Part shown: in pieces, positions 5,301 to 45,494 of the stretch | Layout of the letters: every line of letters begins with the position of its first letter | Position numbering within the stretch: the stretch's first letter is position 1 | Source: an uncultured Bacteroidales bacterium | Lineage (GTDB): Bacteria; Bacteroidota; Bacteroidia; Bacteroidales; Paludibacteraceae | DNA: 51,039 nucleotides | Assembly: GCA_902771935.1 (NCBI GenBank) | Contig: CACXYM010000010.1 | Location: 1-51,039 of the forward strand | Direction of reading: 5' to 3' | Translations under genes and position numbers: made by a program | The notes under the pieces: generated by a model | Database searches by the model: none | Seen by the model: the letters and a program-made list of their open reading frames with translations, nothing else | Told to the model about the DNA's origin: nothing

Positions 5301-6167
5301 GACAACTGGACGGCTGACGAACATAAATCCGACCTCGTACGTCGTTGCATCATGAACTATATTAATAAGTATAAGGAGTATGATGCAGCCCTCAAGCGCG
5401 ATAAATTCAACCTCACTATCGGAGACGAACTGCCCTCTGGTATCATCCAAACTGCAAAAGTATATGTTGCTAAACGCCGTAAGATCCGCGTGGGTGATAA
5501 AATGGCCGGTCGTCACGGTAACAAAGGTATCGTTTCTAAAATCGTACGCGTAGAAGATATGCCGTTCATGGCAGACGGAACGCCGGTGGATATCGTTCTG
5601 AACCCGCTGGGTGTACCTTCTCGTATGAATATTGGTCAGATCTTCGAAGCCGTTCTCGGTTGGGCTGGTGACGAACTTGGTGTTAAGTTTGCAACGCCTA
5701 TCTTTGACGGATGTACACTCGAATCTCTTGATGAGTGGACAGACAAAGCAGGCCTTCCCCGTGCAGGTAAAACCCAACTCTATGATGGTGGAACTGGTGA
5801 ACCATTTGACCAAATGGCTACCGTCGGCGTAACCTACTTCATGAAACTCGGCCACATGGTCGACGACAAGATGCACGCTCGTTCAATCGGCCCGTACAGC
5901 TTGATTACACAACAACCGCTCGGAGGTAAAGCACAATTCGGTGGACAACGTTTCGGTGAAATGGAGGTTTGGGCACTCGAGGCACACGGTGCTGCTCATG
6001 TGCTCCAAGAAATCCTTACTGTCAAATCCGATGACGTTACAGGACGTGCTCGTACCTACGAGGCTATCGTGAAAGGCGAACCGATGCCTACACCGGGTCT
6101 GCCTGAATCACTTAACGTATTGTTACACGAACTGCAGGGCTTAGCACTGTCGATAAAGATGGAGTAA
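2355..6167 (+). CDS. rpoB: DNA-directed RNA polymerase subunit beta
   Basis: Encodes the 1270-aa beta subunit of RNA polymerase. The rifampicin-binding region (about residues 466-500) reads [11 protein letters not shown], then [15 protein letters not shown]; the positions equivalent to E. coli D516, H526 and S531 are all wild type. The following [12 protein letters not shown] motif (about 521-532) and the C-terminal [28 protein letters not shown] segments are all present. Length is typical for Bacteroidales. It lies behind the rplL terminator and six nt ahead of rpoC, so the two subunits are surely cotranscribed. Confidence 0.99.
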
Positions 6168-23638: not shown

Positions 23639-23683
23639 GGGGTATGATGTAGGCTTTGAGTTACGGTGGAGGTATAGTAATAA

Positions 23684-23714
23684 CTAACGAATATCTAACG
23701 AATCACTAACGATT
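23684..23714. repeat. 11-bp-period tandem repeat, locus 1
   Basis: CTAACGA occurs at 23684, 23695 and 23706, that is, three copies at exactly 11-bp spacing, between the DUF3987 remnant and the 104-aa gene. Confidence 0.85.
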
Positions 23715-23774: not shown

Positions 23775-24089
23775 ATGGCACAGTTTGAAACCATAATGGA
23801 GATTGTCAAGTTTATCGGCAAGTTATCCAGCAAGTCGCGTTTGATAGCGCGTCAGAAAGTGTATCGATATGGTGGTTATATCAAGGGATACGGTCCGAAG
23901 GAGATGTATGAAAAGGAACGGCGTAACTACCGTTATCATCCTCGTCGTGCAGCGGAGCGCGCGCAGTATGAGAAGTGGTGTCGTGCGTGTCGTGAGGCGA
24001 CGGAGATAGTTCATGATGAGCATCATCCGCGTTATGCAGAGTTGCATGCGGCGTGGGAAGCACAGCTAGTAAAGGAGGTACGCCCTTAA
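23775..24089 (+). CDS. Orphan 104-aa protein of the accessory patch
   Basis: A short, strongly basic and Arg/Tyr/Glu-rich protein (ERRNYRYHPRRAAERAQYEKW, followed by CRACREATEIVHDEHHPRYAEL). It has no signal peptide or membrane segment. The C-terminal half has the rhythm of a small helical domain common in uncharacterised Bacteroidales mobile-element genes. It follows an A/G-rich, SD-like stretch (AAAGGAAAAAAG). It is the only plus-strand gene between the two large minus-strand operons and its codon choice (many GCG and CGC) differs from the neighbours, suggesting transfer. The function is unknown. Confidence 0.6.
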   Translation: MAQFETIMEIVKFIGKLSSKSRLIARQKVYRYGGYIKGYGPKEMYEKERRNYRYHPRRAAERAQYEKWCRACREATEIVHDEHHPRYAELHAAWEAQLVKEVRP

Positions 24090-24090
24090 T

Positions 24091-24963
24091 TTATTTGGCA
24101 TCGCGTCCCCATTTCCAGCGGTTGTGAGACCAAAGCCACTGTTCGGGTTGTTCGATGATATTGTTTTCGAGTCGGCGGGCGAACTGCTCGGTGATATAGT
24201 TCTCGGGCGTGTTCGGTGCATCGTCGGTGATTAAGTCCACCCGCGCCACATAATGTCCGCGTTTGGGACAGGTCATGTGGACATAAGTTACGACATAATC
24301 GAACTTTTTGGCGAGCATCTCTCCACCATCGAGGAAGGAAGTCTCCTGATTGAGGAAAGTGGTCCAATAGTGCGCGTTACGTGGAGTAGGTTTCTGGTCG
24401 GCTATCAAGCCAAGCGTAAAGTGTGCATCTCGTTTCTTGAGTAGCACCAGATGGCGCAGAAGATTGTTTTTCTCAATACCGCTATTGGCTCCACTACGCT
24501 TTTCCCGTACGGCTATCATCGCCTTGTCCGAACCGGAACTTTTGAGTTTGCGGTACACGTTGTAATGCTGCATTTCCGGACGTTTGAACCGATGCTGTAC
24601 CTCTGCTGTCCACTCCCAATTACCGAGATGACCAAGCATAAAGATAACGCCTCCTTTGCGCTGCGCCCATTGTTCCACTTTGTCCACATTTATCGATTCA
24701 AAATGCTTGAGCATATCTTGTTCTGTGGCACGGTAGGACCAGATAACTTCTGCAAAAATATCTACGAGGTGATGGTAATAGCGTTTTTCTATTACCTTGC
24801 GCTCTGTGTTCGATTTATCTGGAAAACTGAGACGGAGATTTTTACGAACGATCTTTTTGCGATACCCAAGAATGTAGTACATAAGCGGATAAGTAAAAAT
24901 ATCGCCGAGGAAATAAAGTACCCGTAGCGGCAAGAGGCTTAATATGGATATGCAGAATTTCAT
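24091..24963 (-). CDS. Lipid A biosynthesis-type acyltransferase (LpxL/HtrB family)
   Basis: A 290-aa protein with an N-terminal membrane anchor (LSLLPLRVLYFLGDIF) and the family active-site motif H112-LGNW-E117 (HX4E). KNLRLSFPD (41-49) is also typical. Members transfer a secondary acyl chain to lipid A precursors at the inner membrane. The ATG overlaps the stop of the preceding sulfatase-family gene by 4 nt (ATGA), so it is the last gene of the overlapping grpE-dnaJ-envelope operon. Whether it acts on lipid A or another lipid (for example amino or ornithine lipids) cannot be told from sequence. Confidence 0.9.
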   Translation of the reverse strand: MKFCISILSLLPLRVLYFLGDIFTYPLMYYILGYRKKIVRKNLRLSFPDKSNTERKVIEKRYYHHLVDIFAEVIWSYRATEQDMLKHFESINVDKVEQWAQRKGGVIFMLGHLGNWEWTAEVQHRFKRPEMQHYNVYRKLKSSGSDKAMIAVREKRSGANSGIEKNNLLRHLVLLKKRDAHFTLGLIADQKPTPRNAHYWTTFLNQETSFLDGGEMLAKKFDYVVTYVHMTCPKRGHYVARVDLITDDAPNTPENYITEQFARRLENNIIEQPEQWLWSHNRWKWGRDAK

Positions 24964-26765
24964 TGTTTAGTGAGTTGAGTCATTATATATTGTGTAAATG
25001 CTTTTGCTTTGTATGTTCGGTCAGCAGAAGGACTGCTTTCCAGGATGGGCTTGTCCACCACAGCATCAATAACAGTAGTTCCGGTAGAATCAATAAAGGC
25101 GAAACCATCCACAAAATGATAATAGGCAAAGGCATTGTTTTTAGAGGCCAAAATATCTTTGGCAAATATAAAATCCGATGCGTCAAGATGCATTTGGTGT
25201 AGCAATGTCGGCACCCAATCAATCTGTGAACAAAGAGTTGATATTACACGTGGCTCTTTGACTGCTCCTCCGGTAAAAATGATAGGGATACGATAACGAA
25301 GTGTGTCGTAATTGGTGATGCCGTCAGGATATGGATAACCATGATCTGCGACAAGGACAACCAATGTGCTGTCCCATGCCGGACTTGTTCTCAATGTATC
25401 CACAAATGCTCCGAGACAACTGTCGGTATAGGCTATAGCATTGAGATAAGAGTGCGAGTAATGATGATAATCAACCTCAAAAGGTTCATGTGATGAGAGA
25501 CTAAGGACTACGTTGAACGTCCGATCATCCGTTACTTGGCGTTGAACAATATCGTGTGCAGCGTAGTCAAAGAGTATATGATCCGGCACACCCCATTTGC
25601 TCATTCGTTGTGACATTGGGAAATCGTGGTCGCAGACACGTTGCTCAAAACCGCCAGTGACTAAATATGAGCGCATATTGGTGAAGTCTTCATCTCCGCC
25701 GTAGTAAAACTTGAGGTTATACCCATTGGCTTTGAGTACTTGTCCGACTTGTGGCAATTGTTGTGATTTTGATGGAATCATCATGACAGAAGCATTCGCG
25801 CATCCAGGGAAGGCACCGAGTACAGCCATCACGCCGCGATCCGTCCGATAACTATTCGCGAAAGCTCGATTGAAAAATACTCCTTCTTTTGCGAGGTTTT
25901 GCATGTTGGGCATTACGTCCCACGCATTGGATGAAAAGCTTTCGAGAATACAAAGCACGATGTTCGGGCGAGTGGTTGTGAGAAGTGGTTCTGTTGTGCC
26001 GCAAGAGTAGCCTAACATACGCTTAACATACGCTGCGCATTCGTCATCAGACATATAGGTATATCGCTTGGTATCCAATCTGTTTTCTGAGAGTGATTCT
26101 ACTATATTGAAAATAGGATTAATAGCTGCCAGATTAAGCATGCGATTGTCGGAGTAATAGACTCGCCCTGTGTTCATTGTAGAGACTGTGACGCTGCCGC
26201 GGATGGGAAGAAAAAGTAAGGCGGTCAGCACAACCATTACGGCCGTTGCTGTTATCTTTCTTTTAATACTCATGTGCTGTGCAGGTTCTTTATGAAGCAA
26301 ATATCGATAAACGAACCACCAGCCTGTGAAAAGTAGTGCAAAAGCTAGCGCTCCCAAGCTCCACAACCACCACGGCGCACAGGCCAGAACTTCTTTGGGT
26401 GACTGGAGGTATGCAAAGAGGTCTTTATCCAGGTGATATCCCCAACTAGGGAATGCCCCATTATCACCAAGAACGACCCATAAAGCGATAGTGAGTAGTA
26501 TGCCTGTGACGACATCGGCAATTTTTTCTATTATAGACCATTTTACCCATATGCTTGCAACGAGCAAAAGGCCGAAGATGACAGTTATATATGCCGCGGT
26601 TGACAAGTCCAATGGTAATCCGTGCCATGGAACAAGAAACCAGTCTGACCACGAGACTTCGCCCAATAAACTATGTTGGCATAGCATGAAAAGCGGCTTC
26701 TGTACAATGAAGAACACTATCCAAAATAGATAATATGTGAAGAATAAGTGTATTCTATCTTTCAT
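24960..26765 (-). CDS. Second LTA synthase-like sulfatase-family membrane transferase
   Basis: A 601-aa paralogue of the gene at 14670-16535. Five hydrophobic segments occupy about residues 8-190; the rest is an extracytoplasmic sulfatase-fold domain. Expected metal/catalytic elements are present: IVLCILESFSSNAWD, the nucleophile region NSYRTDRGVMAVLGAFPG and VLVADHGYPY. Likely reaction: transfer of a phosphoglycerol- or phosphoethanolamine-type head group to an envelope acceptor. It overlaps the neighbours on both sides by 4 nt (ATGA). Being coupled to an LpxL-type gene points to lipid or LPS decoration, by inference. Confidence 0.9.
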   Translation of the reverse strand: MKDRIHLFFTYYLFWIVFFIVQKPLFMLCQHSLLGEVSWSDWFLVPWHGLPLDLSTAAYITVIFGLLLVASIWVKWSIIEKIADVVTGILLTIALWVVLGDNGAFPSWGYHLDKDLFAYLQSPKEVLACAPWWLWSLGALAFALLFTGWWFVYRYLLHKEPAQHMSIKRKITATAVMVVLTALLFLPIRGSVTVSTMNTGRVYYSDNRMLNLAAINPIFNIVESLSENRLDTKRYTYMSDDECAAYVKRMLGYSCGTTEPLLTTTRPNIVLCILESFSSNAWDVMPNMQNLAKEGVFFNRAFANSYRTDRGVMAVLGAFPGCANASVMMIPSKSQQLPQVGQVLKANGYNLKFYYGGDEDFTNMRSYLVTGGFEQRVCDHDFPMSQRMSKWGVPDHILFDYAAHDIVQRQVTDDRTFNVVLSLSSHEPFEVDYHHYSHSYLNAIAYTDSCLGAFVDTLRTSPAWDSTLVVLVADHGYPYPDGITNYDTLRYRIPIIFTGGAVKEPRVISTLCSQIDWVPTLLHQMHLDASDFIFAKDILASKNNAFAYYHFVDGFAFIDSTGTTVIDAVVDKPILESSPSADRTYKAKAFTQYIMTQLTKQ

Positions 26766-34580: not shown

Positions 34581-35786
34581 TTATTCGCGGTTGATTTTAC
34601 TTCCTCCGACCGCCATATTGCGTTTGAGGGTAGGATGGCCTTTGTAGGTGATTTTGCTTGCGCCGGAAGCTTGTGCCCAAAGTTCTTTGGTGACATTCAC
34701 TTCGGCTTTGGATGCGCCGAGGCAGTTGATATGCATAGCGGTTACGTCGGCTTTTTCTGCGTCGAGTTTGGATGCGCCGGAGAGTGAAATCTGCAGGTCG
34801 TTATATCGTCCACGAAGGGAAACCGTACTTGCTCCGGATATATTGATTGCTGTTAGATCTCGCACGGTGATGGTAGCGTGGCGGTATCCGTTGATGTTAT
34901 TGCCGGAGATAGTTAGTATGCTGTCTTTCACTTGGTAATCCACTAACATCGAGTCGTTGACTGCGATAGCCAGTGTGTCTCCTTGAAGGATATCCACATC
35001 CATTGCGCCGGAGATATTGATGGCATTAAAGGTGGGAACTTCGGCCGTTAAAGCGGCGGGTGTATCTTCGTTATCAATTTGTTGCAAAAGGGCATCTATT
35101 CCGCCGAGGTTTTTGGCTTGGTTGAGCGTAAGTACGGTGAGGCAAACCAAGCTGGCAACCCAACATAGTAGTGATATAAGCCAGAATCGCGCCTTAGGTA
35201 AATGGCGTGTACGGAGAAGAGTGACGATAGCACGCACAATGACAAAGACCGGAGTCGCTATGGCTATAATAATAGCAATAATTCCCAAGAGAATTTGCCA
35301 CCATTCTGCCCCAACAAGGAACGGAACGGACGCAATCGGCATAAGGCTCAAGGAACCCATACCAACGCCAAACACACCGATCAGCAGCGCAAATAGTCCT
35401 GCAAAAAGTGGAATGAGAATAGGCAGCGTAACAAGGATAAGGAAGACGAGCAACGCAATGCCAAAGACGCGACCGCAACCGCTGTTTGCTCTTGCGGCAG
35501 AGTACTTGATATGAGGACGTTTATTGGCACCAAAGTCAGCCGGCTGACCGATACGCTGTGTGATAGCATCGACCATTTTGATATCCACTACCTGCACATT
35601 ACGTGCAAAGAGTTCAGCCTGAAGGAGTTCGCAAACACGGGCTTCGATAGCCGCCATTTCTTTTTCGCGGTCATCGGCAGAGAGTCGTAGTTCAATATCT
35701 TGCAGATAATCATTGAGGGCTTGATAAGCATCATTATCGATGTGGAATACGACCCCATTAACGTTGACAGTTCTTGTTACTTTCAT
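34581..35786 (-). CDS. PspC-like/DUF2807 membrane protein
   Basis: A 401-aa protein in three parts. The N-terminal cytoplasmic region (MKVTRTVNVNGVVFHIDNDA) matches the N-terminus of Bacteroidota PspC-type proteins. The middle has about four hydrophobic segments (about 110-230). The C-terminus (about 250-395) is a DUF2807-type beta-helix domain with repeating FNAINISGAMDVDIL and AINISGASTVSLRG units. It may sense envelope state; the function is unproven. ATG at 35786 is chosen because it lies just downstream of the TATCTTTG promoter; an upstream in-frame start would overlap the promoter. Confidence 0.85.
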   Translation of the reverse strand: MKVTRTVNVNGVVFHIDNDAYQALNDYLQDIELRLSADDREKEMAAIEARVCELLQAELFARNVQVVDIKMVDAITQRIGQPADFGANKRPHIKYSAARANSGCGRVFGIALLVFLILVTLPILIPLFAGLFALLIGVFGVGMGSLSLMPIASVPFLVGAEWWQILLGIIAIIIAIATPVFVIVRAIVTLLRTRHLPKARFWLISLLCWVASLVCLTVLTLNQAKNLGGIDALLQQIDNEDTPAALTAEVPTFNAINISGAMDVDILQGDTLAIAVNDSMLVDYQVKDSILTISGNNINGYRHATITVRDLTAINISGASTVSLRGRYNDLQISLSGASKLDAEKADVTAMHINCLGASKAEVNVTKELWAQASGASKITYKGHPTLKRNMAVGGSKINRE

Positions 35787-35816
35787 TGTTTTATCTTTAT
35801 TTGTCCAAAAATCGCG

Positions 35817-35848
35817 CAAAGATACTGCTTTTTTGTGGATTACGCAAG
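35817..35848 (-). promoter_or_regulatory. Promoter of the PspC-like/DUF2807 gene
   Basis: -7 box TATCTTTG (35817-35824), 20-nt spacer, CTTG in place of TTTG at 35845-35848. It is a good match to the promoter type used throughout the window. Confidence 0.7.
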
Positions 35849-35896
35849 AAAAAAGCAGAAATTATATTAGGATTCCGATTGGATCAGGCTTCTAAC

Positions 35897-35990
35897 ATAG
35901 TAACAATATAGTAGAAACATAGTATAAATATAGTAATAACATAGTAACCACATACTAATCACATAGTAATCACATACTAATCACATACTA
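35897..35990. repeat. 11-bp-period tandem repeat, locus 2 (nine copies)
   Basis: ATAGTA or ATACTA occurs at 35897, 35908, 35919, 35930, 35941, 35952, 35963, 35974 and 35985, every step exactly 11 bp; the last five copies share a longer unit (ACATACTAATC type). It lies upstream of the DUF2807 promoter. No gene is present here. Confidence 0.95.
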
Positions 35991-36045
35991 ATTTCTCGAA
36001 TTAATGGGGGAGAGAGAAGGATGGGATGGAAGGGAGAAAGGGGAG

Positions 36046-36250
36046 AGATAATGTGTAATGTGTAATGCGTAATGTGTTGTGTGGGCTGTGTAATATGTAA
36101 TGCGTAATGCGTAATGTGTTGTGAAGGCTGTGTAATGTGTAATGGGTAATGTGTAATGTGTAATGTTGTGAGGGCTGGGTAATGTGTAATGTGTAATGCG
36201 TTGTGAGGGCTGTGTAATGTGTAATGTGTAATGCGTATGGTGGGCTGGGT
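36046..36250. repeat. Composite 7-bp tandem repeat array
   Basis: Runs of 3-5 heptamers of the type TGTAATG / CGTAATG are separated by a GTTGTGAGGGCTG-like spacer. The GGCT marker recurs at 36084, 36126, 36173, 36208 and 36243 (spacings 42, 47, 35, 35), reflecting different numbers of heptamers per block. No gene is supported between 35825 and 36297. It is a likely variable-number repeat. Confidence 0.9.
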
Positions 36251-36297
36251 AAGAAGAAAGAGTGGATGGGTTAATGGATTAATGGATGAAGGGGGTA

Positions 36298-43112: not shown

Positions 43113-45302
43113 TTAATGGATGAACATCAATTCACGATATTTAGGCAGCGTCCATAATTCGTCGTCCACTATCATTTCCAGGTCATCTACGTGCTCGCGG
43201 ATTGCGGCCATAACTGGCAGGACATGGTCGTGATAAGCAATGGCCTTGTCGCGTTCTGTCGGACTCTCATGGTTGGCTTTGTGTCGTGCTGTAGTCATTT
43301 TTTCCACTTTCTCAATGATTGCTGCGGCATGGTGCTCGATGCGGCGAATGATGGAGTAGTCTTGCTCATTGAGGCTGCGCACTTCGTCTTCAGCAAAGAC
43401 TTGTTTGACAGCCAGAACGTTCTGCAGGAGCATGGTTTGATAGCGTTTAGCGGCAGGCAGAATATGGTTGATAACGAGATCACCAAGCACGCGGCTTTCT
43501 ATTTGTAACTTCTTTGAATAGGTCTCCCACTTTACTTCGCAGCGGCTCTGTAGTTCCGCTTCAGTAAGAACTTCCGTTGTCTTGAACATGTTGATGACGT
43601 CGGGATTGAGGTAGCGGTCGAAGATGAGTGGTACACTTGTTTCGCAATCCAGGCCGCGTTTAGCAGCTTCGGTTTTCCATTCATCAGAATAACCGTTTCC
43701 ATCAAAACGTATCGGTTTGGAGGTGACGATATATGATTTGATGACTTTGAACAGAGCACGCTCTTTGGGTTCGCCCTTTTCGATGAGTTTATCCACTTCT
43801 GCTTTGAATTGGAACAATTGGTTTGCAACGGCAGCATTCAGGGCCAACATCGCAGCGCCGCAGTTAGCCGAAGAACCAACTGCGCGGAACTCAAAGCGGT
43901 TGCCGGTGAAGGCAAAAGGTGAAGTACGGTTGCGGTCGGTATTGTCCAACAGAATCTCCGGTATATTCGCCACGCCGAGTTTCATCTCTTTCTTGGCGTT
44001 GATGATGATACCTTTCTCGGCGGAAGCATGCTCTAATTTATCCAGGACTTCGCTTATCTGTTTGCCGAGGAAGACCGAGATAATTGCAGGAGGAGCTTCA
44101 TTTGCGCCGAGACGATGTTCATTCGTAGCGCTGGCAATGGATGCTTTCAGTAGACCGTTATACTTATATACTGCCATCAGTACATTGACGAGGAAAGTAA
44201 CGAACTGTAGGTTTTGATATGGGTTTTTACCCGGAGCAAGCAAATTAATGCCTGTATTGGTCTGCATCGACCAGTTACAATGTTTACCGCTACCGTTAAC
44301 GCCTGCAAATGGTTTCTCATGCAGCAGTACGCGGAAGTGATGCTTACGCGCAACGCGTTCCATAATAGACATGATGAGCAGGTTATGGTCATTGGCTAAG
44401 TTCACATCCTCAAAGATGGGAGCCATCTCAAACTGGTTAGGTGCCACCTCATTATGGCGAGTACGAATAGGAATTCCTGCGCGCAACGCTTCAAACTCCA
44501 AGTCCATCATAAAATTGCGCACGCGCTCTGGGATAGCACCGAAATAATGGTCCTCAAGCTGTTGGTTTTTGGCTGACAGATGTCCCATCAAAGTGCGTCC
44601 GGTCAGTAACAAGTCAGGCCGTGCGTCATATAGCGCTTCGTCCACAAGGAAATATTCCTGTTCCCAACCTAGATTGGCGTGCACGTGGCGGACTTGCTTA
44701 TCGAAGAACTGACACACCTCGCGTGCAGCTTTACATAGTGCAGCCGTCGAGCGAATAAGTGGCGTTTTGTAGTCCAATGCTTCGCCTGTGTATGCTACAA
44801 ATACAGTTGGAATACAGAGCGTGTCGCTGATGAGAAAAACGGGTGACGATGGATCCCAAGCTGAATAACCTCTTGCTTCGAAGGTGTTGCGGATACCTCC
44901 TGAAGGGAAAGATGAGGCATCCGGTTCCTGTTGATAGAGCGCGTCACCAGTAAATTCTTCCATCAGCAATCCGTCTTTGTTCAGCGTAAAGAAAGCATCA
45001 TGCTTCTCCGCTGTGCCGCCTGTCAAAGGCTGAAACCAGTGCGTGTAATGTGTGGCGCCATGATCCATGGCCCATTTGCGCATGCCAATAGCTACTGTAT
45101 TGGCGATGTCACGGTGAATAGTTCTGCCGTTGTCGATGTCGTCAAACAGCTGGTTCAGCACATCCTCCGCGATATATTCTTTCATTCGCTCACGAGTGAA
45201 AACGTCCGCGGCGAAATAATCTTTCACTTTTCCTTCCGGTTTAGAAGGAACTACCGGCAAATGCGATGTTGCCTTGTTTAATGCTTCAAAACGATTGTTC
45301 AT
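43113..45302 (-). CDS. glnN: Glutamine synthetase type III
   Basis: A 729-aa GSIII, the large glutamine synthetase typical of Bacteroides relatives, catalysing ATP-dependent ammonia assimilation. Conserved parts: FQPLTGGTAEKHDAF, then GGIRNTFEARGYSAWD, LGWEQEYFLVD, TRHNEVAPNQFEMAP and the catalytic-core AFTGNRFEFRAVGSSANCG. ATG at 45302 (MNNRFEAL) gives the normal family length; an ATG four codons upstream (45314) is possible. Longer forms are excluded because the promoter lies at 45367-45398. The leader contains two perfect inverted repeats that may regulate it. Confidence 0.97.
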   Translation of the reverse strand: MNNRFEALNKATSHLPVVPSKPEGKVKDYFAADVFTRERMKEYIAEDVLNQLFDDIDNGRTIHRDIANTVAIGMRKWAMDHGATHYTHWFQPLTGGTAEKHDAFFTLNKDGLLMEEFTGDALYQQEPDASSFPSGGIRNTFEARGYSAWDPSSPVFLISDTLCIPTVFVAYTGEALDYKTPLIRSTAALCKAAREVCQFFDKQVRHVHANLGWEQEYFLVDEALYDARPDLLLTGRTLMGHLSAKNQQLEDHYFGAIPERVRNFMMDLEFEALRAGIPIRTRHNEVAPNQFEMAPIFEDVNLANDHNLLIMSIMERVARKHHFRVLLHEKPFAGVNGSGKHCNWSMQTNTGINLLAPGKNPYQNLQFVTFLVNVLMAVYKYNGLLKASIASATNEHRLGANEAPPAIISVFLGKQISEVLDKLEHASAEKGIIINAKKEMKLGVANIPEILLDNTDRNRTSPFAFTGNRFEFRAVGSSANCGAAMLALNAAVANQLFQFKAEVDKLIEKGEPKERALFKVIKSYIVTSKPIRFDGNGYSDEWKTEAAKRGLDCETSVPLIFDRYLNPDVINMFKTTEVLTEAELQSRCEVKWETYSKKLQIESRVLGDLVINHILPAAKRYQTMLLQNVLAVKQVFAEDEVRSLNEQDYSIIRRIEHHAAAIIEKVEKMTTARHKANHESPTERDKAIAYHDHVLPVMAAIREHVDDLEMIVDDELWTLPKYRELMFIH

Positions 45303-45310
45303 AGTTTTAT

Positions 45311-45325
45311 GCATCAAAATGATGC
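45311..45325. promoter_or_regulatory. Inverted repeat at the glnN translation start
   Basis: GCATCA-AAA-TGATGC, a perfect 6-bp inverted repeat. In the mRNA it would fold 9-10 nt before the glnN ATG at 45302 and covers the alternative ATG at 45314. Confidence 0.5.
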
Positions 45326-45336
45326 TATTTTTTAGT

Positions 45337-45351
45337 TTTAATCGGATTAAA
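45337..45351. promoter_or_regulatory. 15-bp palindrome in the glnN leader (candidate operator)
   Basis: TTTAATC-G-GATTAAA, a perfect palindrome between the transcription start (about 45360) and the glnN ATG. It is placed where a repressor could block transcription, fitting nitrogen control, but the binding protein is unknown. Confidence 0.5.
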
Positions 45352-45366
45352 TTTGATTTTCGACCG

Positions 45367-45398
45367 CAAAAGTACAATAAAATATTGAAACGACCAAA
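45367..45398 (-). promoter_or_regulatory. Promoter of glnN
   Basis: TTTG (45395-45398), 20-nt spacer, TACTTTTG (45367-45374) on the minus strand. Upstream, 45399-45434 carries the shared AT-rich element (CCAAAATATAT, T7, GCAC, T5, AGCAAATTTA). Confidence 0.9.
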
Positions 45399-45433
45399 TA
45401 AATTTGCTAAAAAGTGCAAAAAAATATATTTTG

Positions 45434-45494
45434 GCGTAGTATTAGCGTATCTTGGGCGTATGTTATGCGTATCCTTAGCCTATCCTTTGCTGAT
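45434..45494. repeat. 11-bp-period tandem repeat, locus 3
   Basis: GCGTA at 45434, GCGTAT at 45445, 45456 and 45467, GCCTAT at 45478 and a weaker GCTGAT at 45489: six steps of exactly 11 bp, placed between the two divergent promoters of glnN and rpsF. Confidence 0.92.

Follow-up and report, generated by a model that had tools for sequence, protein, structure and literature searches.

The window (the whole stretch of DNA analyzed, 51,039 nucleotides; contig C10 in the genome searched, which comprises 2.06 Mb in 46 contigs) includes three representatives of a group of mostly non-coding elements that resemble satellites, lie dispersed in the genome, and consist of rows of 11-bp units. We infer, with a probability of about 0.4, that these are lineage-specific elements whose units are bound head to tail by protein. 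The features concerned are listed below.

35897 to 35991, plus strand: F1 array, nine (C)ATASTAANNN units at exact 11-bp steps (direct reading and Tandem Repeats Finder)
35862 to 35896, plus strand: F1 head, TTATATTAGGATTCCGATTGGATCAGGCTTCTAAC, with a similar head at 9 of the 11 F1 loci
35992 to 36010, plus strand: F1 tail, TTTCTCGAATTAATGGGGG, after the array, common to two other copies (alignment of loci L001, L002, and L003)
35817 to 35824, minus strand: TATCTTTG, candidate Bacteroidota-type -7 box of the gene at 34581-35819, 37 bp from the F1 head
45434 to 45494, plus strand: F6 array, six degenerate GCSTAT-type units with an 11-bp period, between glutamine synthetase III (43113-45419) and rpsF (45655)
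23679 to 23712, plus strand: F5 array, three AATNNCTAACG units with an 11-bp period, 62 bp upstream of the ORF at 23775-24089

Direct reading placed the ATASTA starts of the F1 array at 35897, 35908, 35919, 35930, 35941, 35952, 35963, 35974, and 35985, the F6 units at 45434 (GCGTAG), 45445, 45456, and 45467 (each GCGTAT), 45478 (GCCTAT), and 45489 (GCTGAT), and the CTAACGA starts of the F5 array at 23684, 23695, and 23706. The initial annotation had reported nine ATA(G/C)TA copies at exact 11-bp steps from 35897, units at the same exact step over 45434-45494, and three CTAACGA copies from 23684, all outside genes; each statement was borne out, with six units in the second array, the end of the third moved from 23714 to 23712, where its last copy ends, and all three arrays outside called ORFs. 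Tandem Repeats Finder likewise returned period 11 for all three, with 69% matches and 11% indels for the array at 45434. The description of the loci as unrelated did not survive, as none is a singleton and each has related arrays elsewhere in the genome. The F1 head of the window is in phase with its array, its own ATATTA at 35864 lying 33 bp (3 × 11) before the first array core. The assignment of TATCTTTG to the Bacteroidota promoter type is our assumption; the stretch around it is common to three F1 copies on alignment, and it may therefore be part of those copies. The known RNA families in the window are four tRNAs and one rRNA end. Two further repeats were noted: a heptamer block (TAATGTG-type, with a higher-order unit of 35-42 bp) at 36049-36252, ∼60 bp beyond the F1 array, and a two-copy 11-bp repeat, TAACATACGCT, at 26010-26043 inside the ORF at 24960-26765, so that the period is not strictly intergenic.

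The period was assessed in a blind sample of 20 stretches of this genome away from known matches (389,802 bases, of which 30,570 were intergenic by a crude longest-ORF call), and a match was defined as at least 17 of 22 identities at a given lag after filtering of low-complexity windows. Intergenic matches at periods 7, 8, 9, 10, 11, 12, and 13 numbered 18, 2, 2, 0, 14, 1, and 0, respectively, and those at periods 14, 16, 21, and 22 numbered 13, 4, 8, and 12. The 14 matches at period 11 stood well above the shuffled control that had been suggested, ten dinucleotide shuffles giving at most 0.1 matches per period. After merging and clustering by unit, period 11 comprised 13 arrays in eight families, compared with two arrays of one family at period 9, one array of one family at period 12, and none at periods 10 and 13; with five equal periods as the null, P was 2e-7 for 13 of 16 arrays and 8e-5 for eight of ten families. 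Heptamers alone rivaled period 11, with 17 arrays in five families at period 7 and 12 arrays in seven families at period 14. At thresholds of 19/22 and 21/22, 10 and 4 arrays were retained at period 11 and 8 and 2 at period 7. The called ORFs, covering far more DNA, held 3 arrays at period 11 and 23 at period 7.

The sample of genus mates comprised 20 stretches, including two picked for F1 matches, and with F1-like arrays excluded it yielded nine arrays at period 11 (eight places, six families), one at period 10, and none at periods 9, 12, and 13; among short periods, seven arrays were found at period 8 and five at period 7. Three genus mates (G004, G007, and G008) gave no period-11 match in 0.6, 3.3, and 2.7 kb, respectively, and seven genomes from other families of the order gave none in 32.1 kb of intergenic DNA. 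A broader set of 25 other Bacteroidales genomes, sampled around F1 loci (16 titled Paludibacteraceae, 7 Bacteroidales, one Colicola, and one Alistipes), gave F1-masked window counts of 23, 11, 10, and 29 at periods 11, 10, 9, and 7. When windows were merged, a stricter F1 mask was applied, and 68 F1-like arrays were dropped, the recount was 10 arrays (eight places, eight families) at period 11, 8 (seven places, five families) at period 10, 9 (six places, four families) at period 9, 1 at period 12, and 0 at period 13. Because this recount erased the apparent excess at 11, we weighed the protein-binding reading and that of a single 11-bp machinery lower, and the neutral alternative higher. Outside the sampled genus mates, and with F1 left out, period 11 has no clear lead over periods 9 and 10. 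The proposal of the initial annotation that the arrays have their spacing in common and not their sequence holds in this genome (eight families) and in the sampled genus mates (six families against one array at period 10). The result it had named as damaging, that periods of 9, 10, 12, and 13 bp are equally common, was not seen in these genomes; in the 25 the proposal does not stand up to it, 8 places at period 11 comparing with 7 at 10, 6 at 9, 1 at 12, and 0 at 13.

F1 was found at 11 places in the genome with a 121-bp query, and a spaced F1 pattern (three mismatches or fewer) gave 48 + 29 overlapping matches, every one on or next to those 11 loci, versus 10 + 7 for the reversed control. In the nine copies that open with the similar head, TTATAYTAGGATTCCGATGGAATCAGGCTTC, about 6-10 units follow. 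Distances between successive ATASTA cores at the 11 loci were multiples of 11 in 81 of 82 cases, as were 192 of 196 steps within clusters of at least four cores at other Bacteroidales loci, so the phase is retained even where the units have undergone numerous base changes. The 92 in-phase units consist of a near-invariant 8-bp core, CATASTAA (column counts C80, A91, T91, A87, S89, T92, A90, and A84), and a 3-bp variable spacer. Core position 5 was G in 49, C in 40, A in 1, and T in 2 of these units; the counts for 163 interior units, taken from 43 chains outside these loci, were G80, C77, A2, and T4. An exchange of C and G is normally a rare change. Here S occupies the center of TASTA, a palindromic pentamer, which would allow the core to be recognized on both strands. 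Deviations were distributed very unevenly across the columns (chi-square p = 5e-38, a value that is indicative only, as the units are kin-related), and the conservation partly reflects descent and data selection, because the units are kin, exact cores served as anchors for the chains, and the loci of other species were fetched using the core itself. CRISPR arrays have repeats of more than 20 bp separated by unique spacers, and the contiguous 11-bp F1 units with three variable bases do not belong to that class. A hairpin in the F1 head (GATTCC-GAT-GGAATC) was considered and rejected; the stem is compensated as CCC/GGG in two copies, but its pairs are broken in several others as judged by eye. 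Near the end of the F1 array in L070 (near 9940) and L147 (near 1050) we also observed an inverted turn, ATATCACTATAGTGATAT, beyond which units continue, and the orthologue L210 is without exactly 44 bp at this site.

Within 774 kb of this genome (targeted stretches included), families F2, F3, F4, and F5 occupied 5, 7, 3, and 5 places, 4 of these 20 falling within crudely called ORFs. The further F5 places lie in L076, L080, L081, and L082, and of these one is located within a called ORF. The F6 array at 45434 shares its unit and 3' flank with L069:10253-10289 and resembles L083:7413, and a DNA search of the genome returned no significant copy of it. An almost invariant 8-bp run with three variable positions is also present in F2 (23 units) and F4 (12 units), in a frame chosen by the analyst; F5 and four Flavobacterium arrays have no clean pattern of eight fixed and three variable positions. 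The units of F3, GTCGGGTGACC, are GC-rich, and four F3 copies have ∼150-205 bp in common and end abruptly in unrelated flanks, as do MITE-like elements. Their ends carry at most a 5-bp CTCAT match by eye and no clear target-site duplication, and none of 26 F3 matches was an autonomous partner. At the right ends of L094 and L099, two F3 copies run into a common promoter-like stretch, GTGCAAAAGTAGTACAAA, and the F3 element may carry or abut a promoter. A common core, NRTRNTWA, derived from F1, F2, and F4, was tried on 38 held-out units and discarded; its mean score was not clearly enriched (p = 0.11), with 7 perfect matches versus 2.8 expected (p = 0.01). A candidate motif, AGGCWT, precedes the F1, F4, and F7 arrays and some F3 arrays.

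In orthologous F1 arrays of three genomes (L070 from this genome, L147 and L210 from two related ones), the alignment gaps inside the arrays were 11 and 44 bp and of no other length, and the orthologues L069 and L205 differ by 11 bp. The comparison of repeat number that had been recommended for strains, made here between relatives, revealed variation in whole 11-bp units. At one orthologous gap the family differs, with an F4 array in this genome (L104:14346-14387) and an F1 array in a relative (L213, CAMOJP, ∼5676-5737). No 11-bp array was present in the gap upstream of rpsF (up to 420 bp) in any of 27 relatives, a comparison drawn from 30 loci of 38 matching genomes out of 41, less two with starts not located and one that was the locus of this genome itself. 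On the basis of the dispersed F3 copies, the 11- and 44-bp gaps, and the absence of the rpsF-gap array in relatives, we conclude from sequence comparison that these elements are scattered through the genome, gain or lose entire units, and are replaced over time. They show both hallmarks of dispersed satellites, namely related copies at unlinked loci and a unit number that varies between relatives.

The distribution of F1 itself is narrow: it was found in this genome, in 7 of 12 genus mates, and in none of eight genomes of other families, and among 296 genomes of the phylum two, this one included, had the exact pattern. A pattern derived from F1 matched 95 stretches in public genomes, and 64 of the 80 listed were titled Paludibacteraceae or Bacteroidales MAGs, many from herbivore gut; the present genome appears to be that of a Paludibacteraceae member, probably a gut bacterium. 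Elsewhere, Chitinophaga E66 gave four matches at period 11 in 38 kb (three from one locus) and none at 7-10 or 12-21, Flavobacterium orientale gave five at period 11 in 7.0 kb (two of its four stretches were picked for matches), and Roseithermus and Colwellia gave none at that period in 3.6 and 10.5 kb, respectively. Blind intergenic DNA of Flavobacterium amniphilum (24.6 kb) yielded 1 match at period 11, 6 at period 7, and 10 at period 14. At nine targeted loci, two of them within an ORF of the crude call, the same species has long 11-bp arrays of at most 38 units, as follows.

L270:4809-5231, L266:4994-5202, and L265/L269: Flavobacterium amniphilum 11-bp arrays composed of sub-arrays, up to 38 units

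The sub-arrays (ATACTACTTTG, GTATGGCTTTA, GTATGGGTCAA, and GTACGGGTCAA) recur in order, with extra blocks at some loci, and L265 and L269 are identical over the ∼600 bp compared save for exactly one 11-bp unit. The F1 pattern also matches two viral contigs, and near-perfect intergenic 11-bp arrays (ACTAATTACAT and AACTTCATACT) were located on viral contigs at L243:8541-8600 and L242:2340-2381. A phage origin was considered and set aside, 10 proteins scanned from the two viral contigs giving RecT and a sub-threshold DnaA-like match; for a plasmid origin no match was found.

Arrays were present in 29 of the 169 intergenic regions in the 774 kb. These gaps were convergent in 4, divergent in 7, and tandem in 18 cases, versus 5.2, 8.9, and 14.8 expected from gap length (p = 0.49), and in the blind stretches alone the numbers were 2, 2, and 6. 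The placement next to promoters or accessory DNA noted earlier is nothing special as regards promoters, the gap types being represented about as their length predicts. A promoter-like box was found within 300 bp of 8 of the 11 F1 copies, at varying distance and in varying direction. Proteins encoded beside or near arrays were scanned (38 in total, 8 from the window and 30 from a list of 53 ORFs) and included an SRP54 GTPase, an Mfd-like helicase, a Mur ligase, an RsmG-like methyltransferase, RecX, a disulfide oxidoreductase, TonB receptors, and surface and other proteins. No common function, transposase, integrase, or partition gene was detected among the 38, and no parM or parR among 20 of the 22 ORFs of at least 100 aa that flank F1 arrays. 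The PhoB-type DNA-binding domain PF00486 had two matches in the genome, neither linked to an array; the Bacteroidota arm-binding domain PF17293 had none, and the Bacteroides control was positive.

The reading that we prefer is one in which each unit would be a site for a sequence-specific DNA-binding protein, with one protein (or dimer) per helical turn arranged head to tail, as modeled on ParR on parC and PhoB-type regulators on direct repeats. Neighboring proteins in contact would fix the step at 11 bp, and the protein or its specificity would vary from family to family. As the scanned neighbors and gap types look random, a bound row would be expected to anchor, loop, or mobilize the element, an effect on the DNA as such, and not to serve as a promoter switch. 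Rows of proteins bound head to tail would impose just such a constant register on freely varying sequence, and we count in favor of such rows the dominance of 11 across unlike families, the register of 81/82, the 11- and 44-bp gaps, and the 8+3 units. The helically phased protein binding first suggested would fit the register and the unit layout; phased curvature, suggested beside it, is unlikely as a general cause. Against binding we count the weak common motif, the 0/27 relatives at rpsF, the lack of a wider excess at 11, and the blind DNA of Flavobacterium amniphilum; no array has a linked protein, and the two PhoB-type domains found in the genome are too few for at least eight families unless other proteins are involved. 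A protein that reads one unit per turn might tolerate a step of 10 as well as 11. Neutral satellites are a serious contender that we hold nearly as credible: tandem duplication in this lineage would favor steps of about one turn, recombination or some transposase would spread the arrays, and nothing would bind them. The unrelated neighbors scanned, unbiased gap types, array positions that are not conserved, gain and loss of whole units, sharp-edged dispersed copies, and arrays of period 7, 8, 9, and 10 in relatives are all consistent with neutrality, which nevertheless leaves unexplained the near absence of out-of-phase F1 steps, the nearly exclusive C or G at position 5 (89/92), and, in this genome and the sampled genus mates, the gathering of unlike sequences at 11 and hardly at 9, 10, 12, or 13. 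On this balance we narrowly prefer protein rows to neutral satellites.

The remaining alternatives are weaker. Some integrase arm sites are ∼11 bp long, as is DR2 of Tn916, and arrays that served as arm-type or end-type sites of a mobile element, with the dispersed copies as its non-autonomous remnants, would match the sharp bounds of the four F3 copies and the recurrence of the F1 head; as the 38 proteins scanned include neither enzyme, the 26 F3 matches no autonomous copy, and the genome no match to PF17293, we think it unlikely that the arrays are sites of a transposase, integrase, or other recombinase. Still less probable are regulatory boxes, that is, 11-bp direct repeats for activators of OmpR/PhoB or similar type upstream of regulated promoters. 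PhoP (PMC4832192) and SARP (PMC10936776) repeats have the same period, promoter-like boxes lie within 300 bp at most F1 copies, and two PF00486 domains exist, but gap types follow length, the scanned neighbors are unrelated housekeeping and surface genes, promoter distance and direction vary, and Flavobacterium arrays reach 38 units. Intrinsic curvature, in which A-tracts spaced at 11 bp bend the DNA, is very improbable: the period is near the helical turn and F2 units contain AAAA, but the consensus units of F1, F4, and F5 have no run of four A or of four T by eye (single deviant units have one), and the GC-rich F3 consensus is free of A-tracts. On these grounds curvature is an unlikely general cause.

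What stands out is the sharing of one helical period, with gain and loss of units in exact steps, by unlike sequences in this genome and its genus mates. Should a protein prove to read the arrays, they would lead to a previously undescribed family of proteins that bind DNA cooperatively, and to a gut-bacterial system that organizes the chromosome or is mobile; arrays read by nothing would point to duplication geared to a single turn of the helix. A bolder and rather doubtful extension is that a single machinery in some Bacteroidota (either an enzyme that writes repeats or a family of DNA-binding proteins), tolerant of sequence and fixed in its 11-bp geometry, might maintain dozens of sequence-distinct arrays per chromosome as chromosome-wide parC-like sites, with the long Flavobacterium amniphilum arrays as the same system.

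Several known systems have an 11-bp step, among them RepB iterons and PhoB boxes, the latter being direct repeats of 11-bp period with a short core and spacer. Multi-family 11-bp arrays in Bacteroidetes, Paludibacteraceae, Flavobacteria, or bacterial genomes did not appear in the best-ranked open-access titles and abstracts, and exact 11-mer pairs are given a normal median representation in Bacteroidetes in the portion of PMC4060949 consulted. According to excerpts of PMC9426499, R1 parC consists of 11-bp direct repeats, two of which are needed by R1 ParR, and the C. perfringens ParRB site has imperfect 8-bp direct repeats 3 bp apart. As in our arrays, the parC centromeres of ParMRC plasmids described there are head-to-tail direct repeats whose unit sequence differs between systems, and the 8-bp core and 3-bp spacer of F1 reproduce the layout published for one ParR site. 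F1 has the fixed short-period direct repeats of parC (81/82 steps) and no adjacent parM and parR; parC is a plasmid site upstream of parM, whereas the arrays are many and chromosomal, with no such gene among the neighbors scanned. PhoP recognizes 7-bp motifs with a 4-bp spacer, for a period of 11 (PMC4832192, in part), and SARP regulators recognize 11-bp direct repeats (PMC10936776, in part). The OmpR/PhoB/PhoP and SARP boxes resemble the arrays in their 11-bp period and short core with spacer but have two or few units in a fixed place at promoters; the arrays are longer, occur also in convergent gaps with no regulon seen, and have no fixed upstream position, as the absence of a gap-type preference and the variable distance indicate. 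Heptameric TAACTGA arrays are described in the sections of PMC4679880 consulted as intergenic, with up to 43 copies and an unsettled role, in Beggiatoaceae, Cyanobacteria, and five Bacteroidetes, and two sets of heptamer arrays are given for Paludibacter propionicigenes. They differ from the 11-bp arrays in having period 7 and a single unit sequence, and the heptamer block of the window (36049-36237) recalls them. The Chloroflexus aurantiacus satellite family, with period 14 and related arrays scattered over the genome, is thought to have transposed (PMC6749651, as excerpted). That survey, in the part seen, sorts satellites by sequence and describes prokaryotic dispersed satellites as one sequence per family, whereas in this genome and its genus mates the quantity shared by unlike families is the length of the step.
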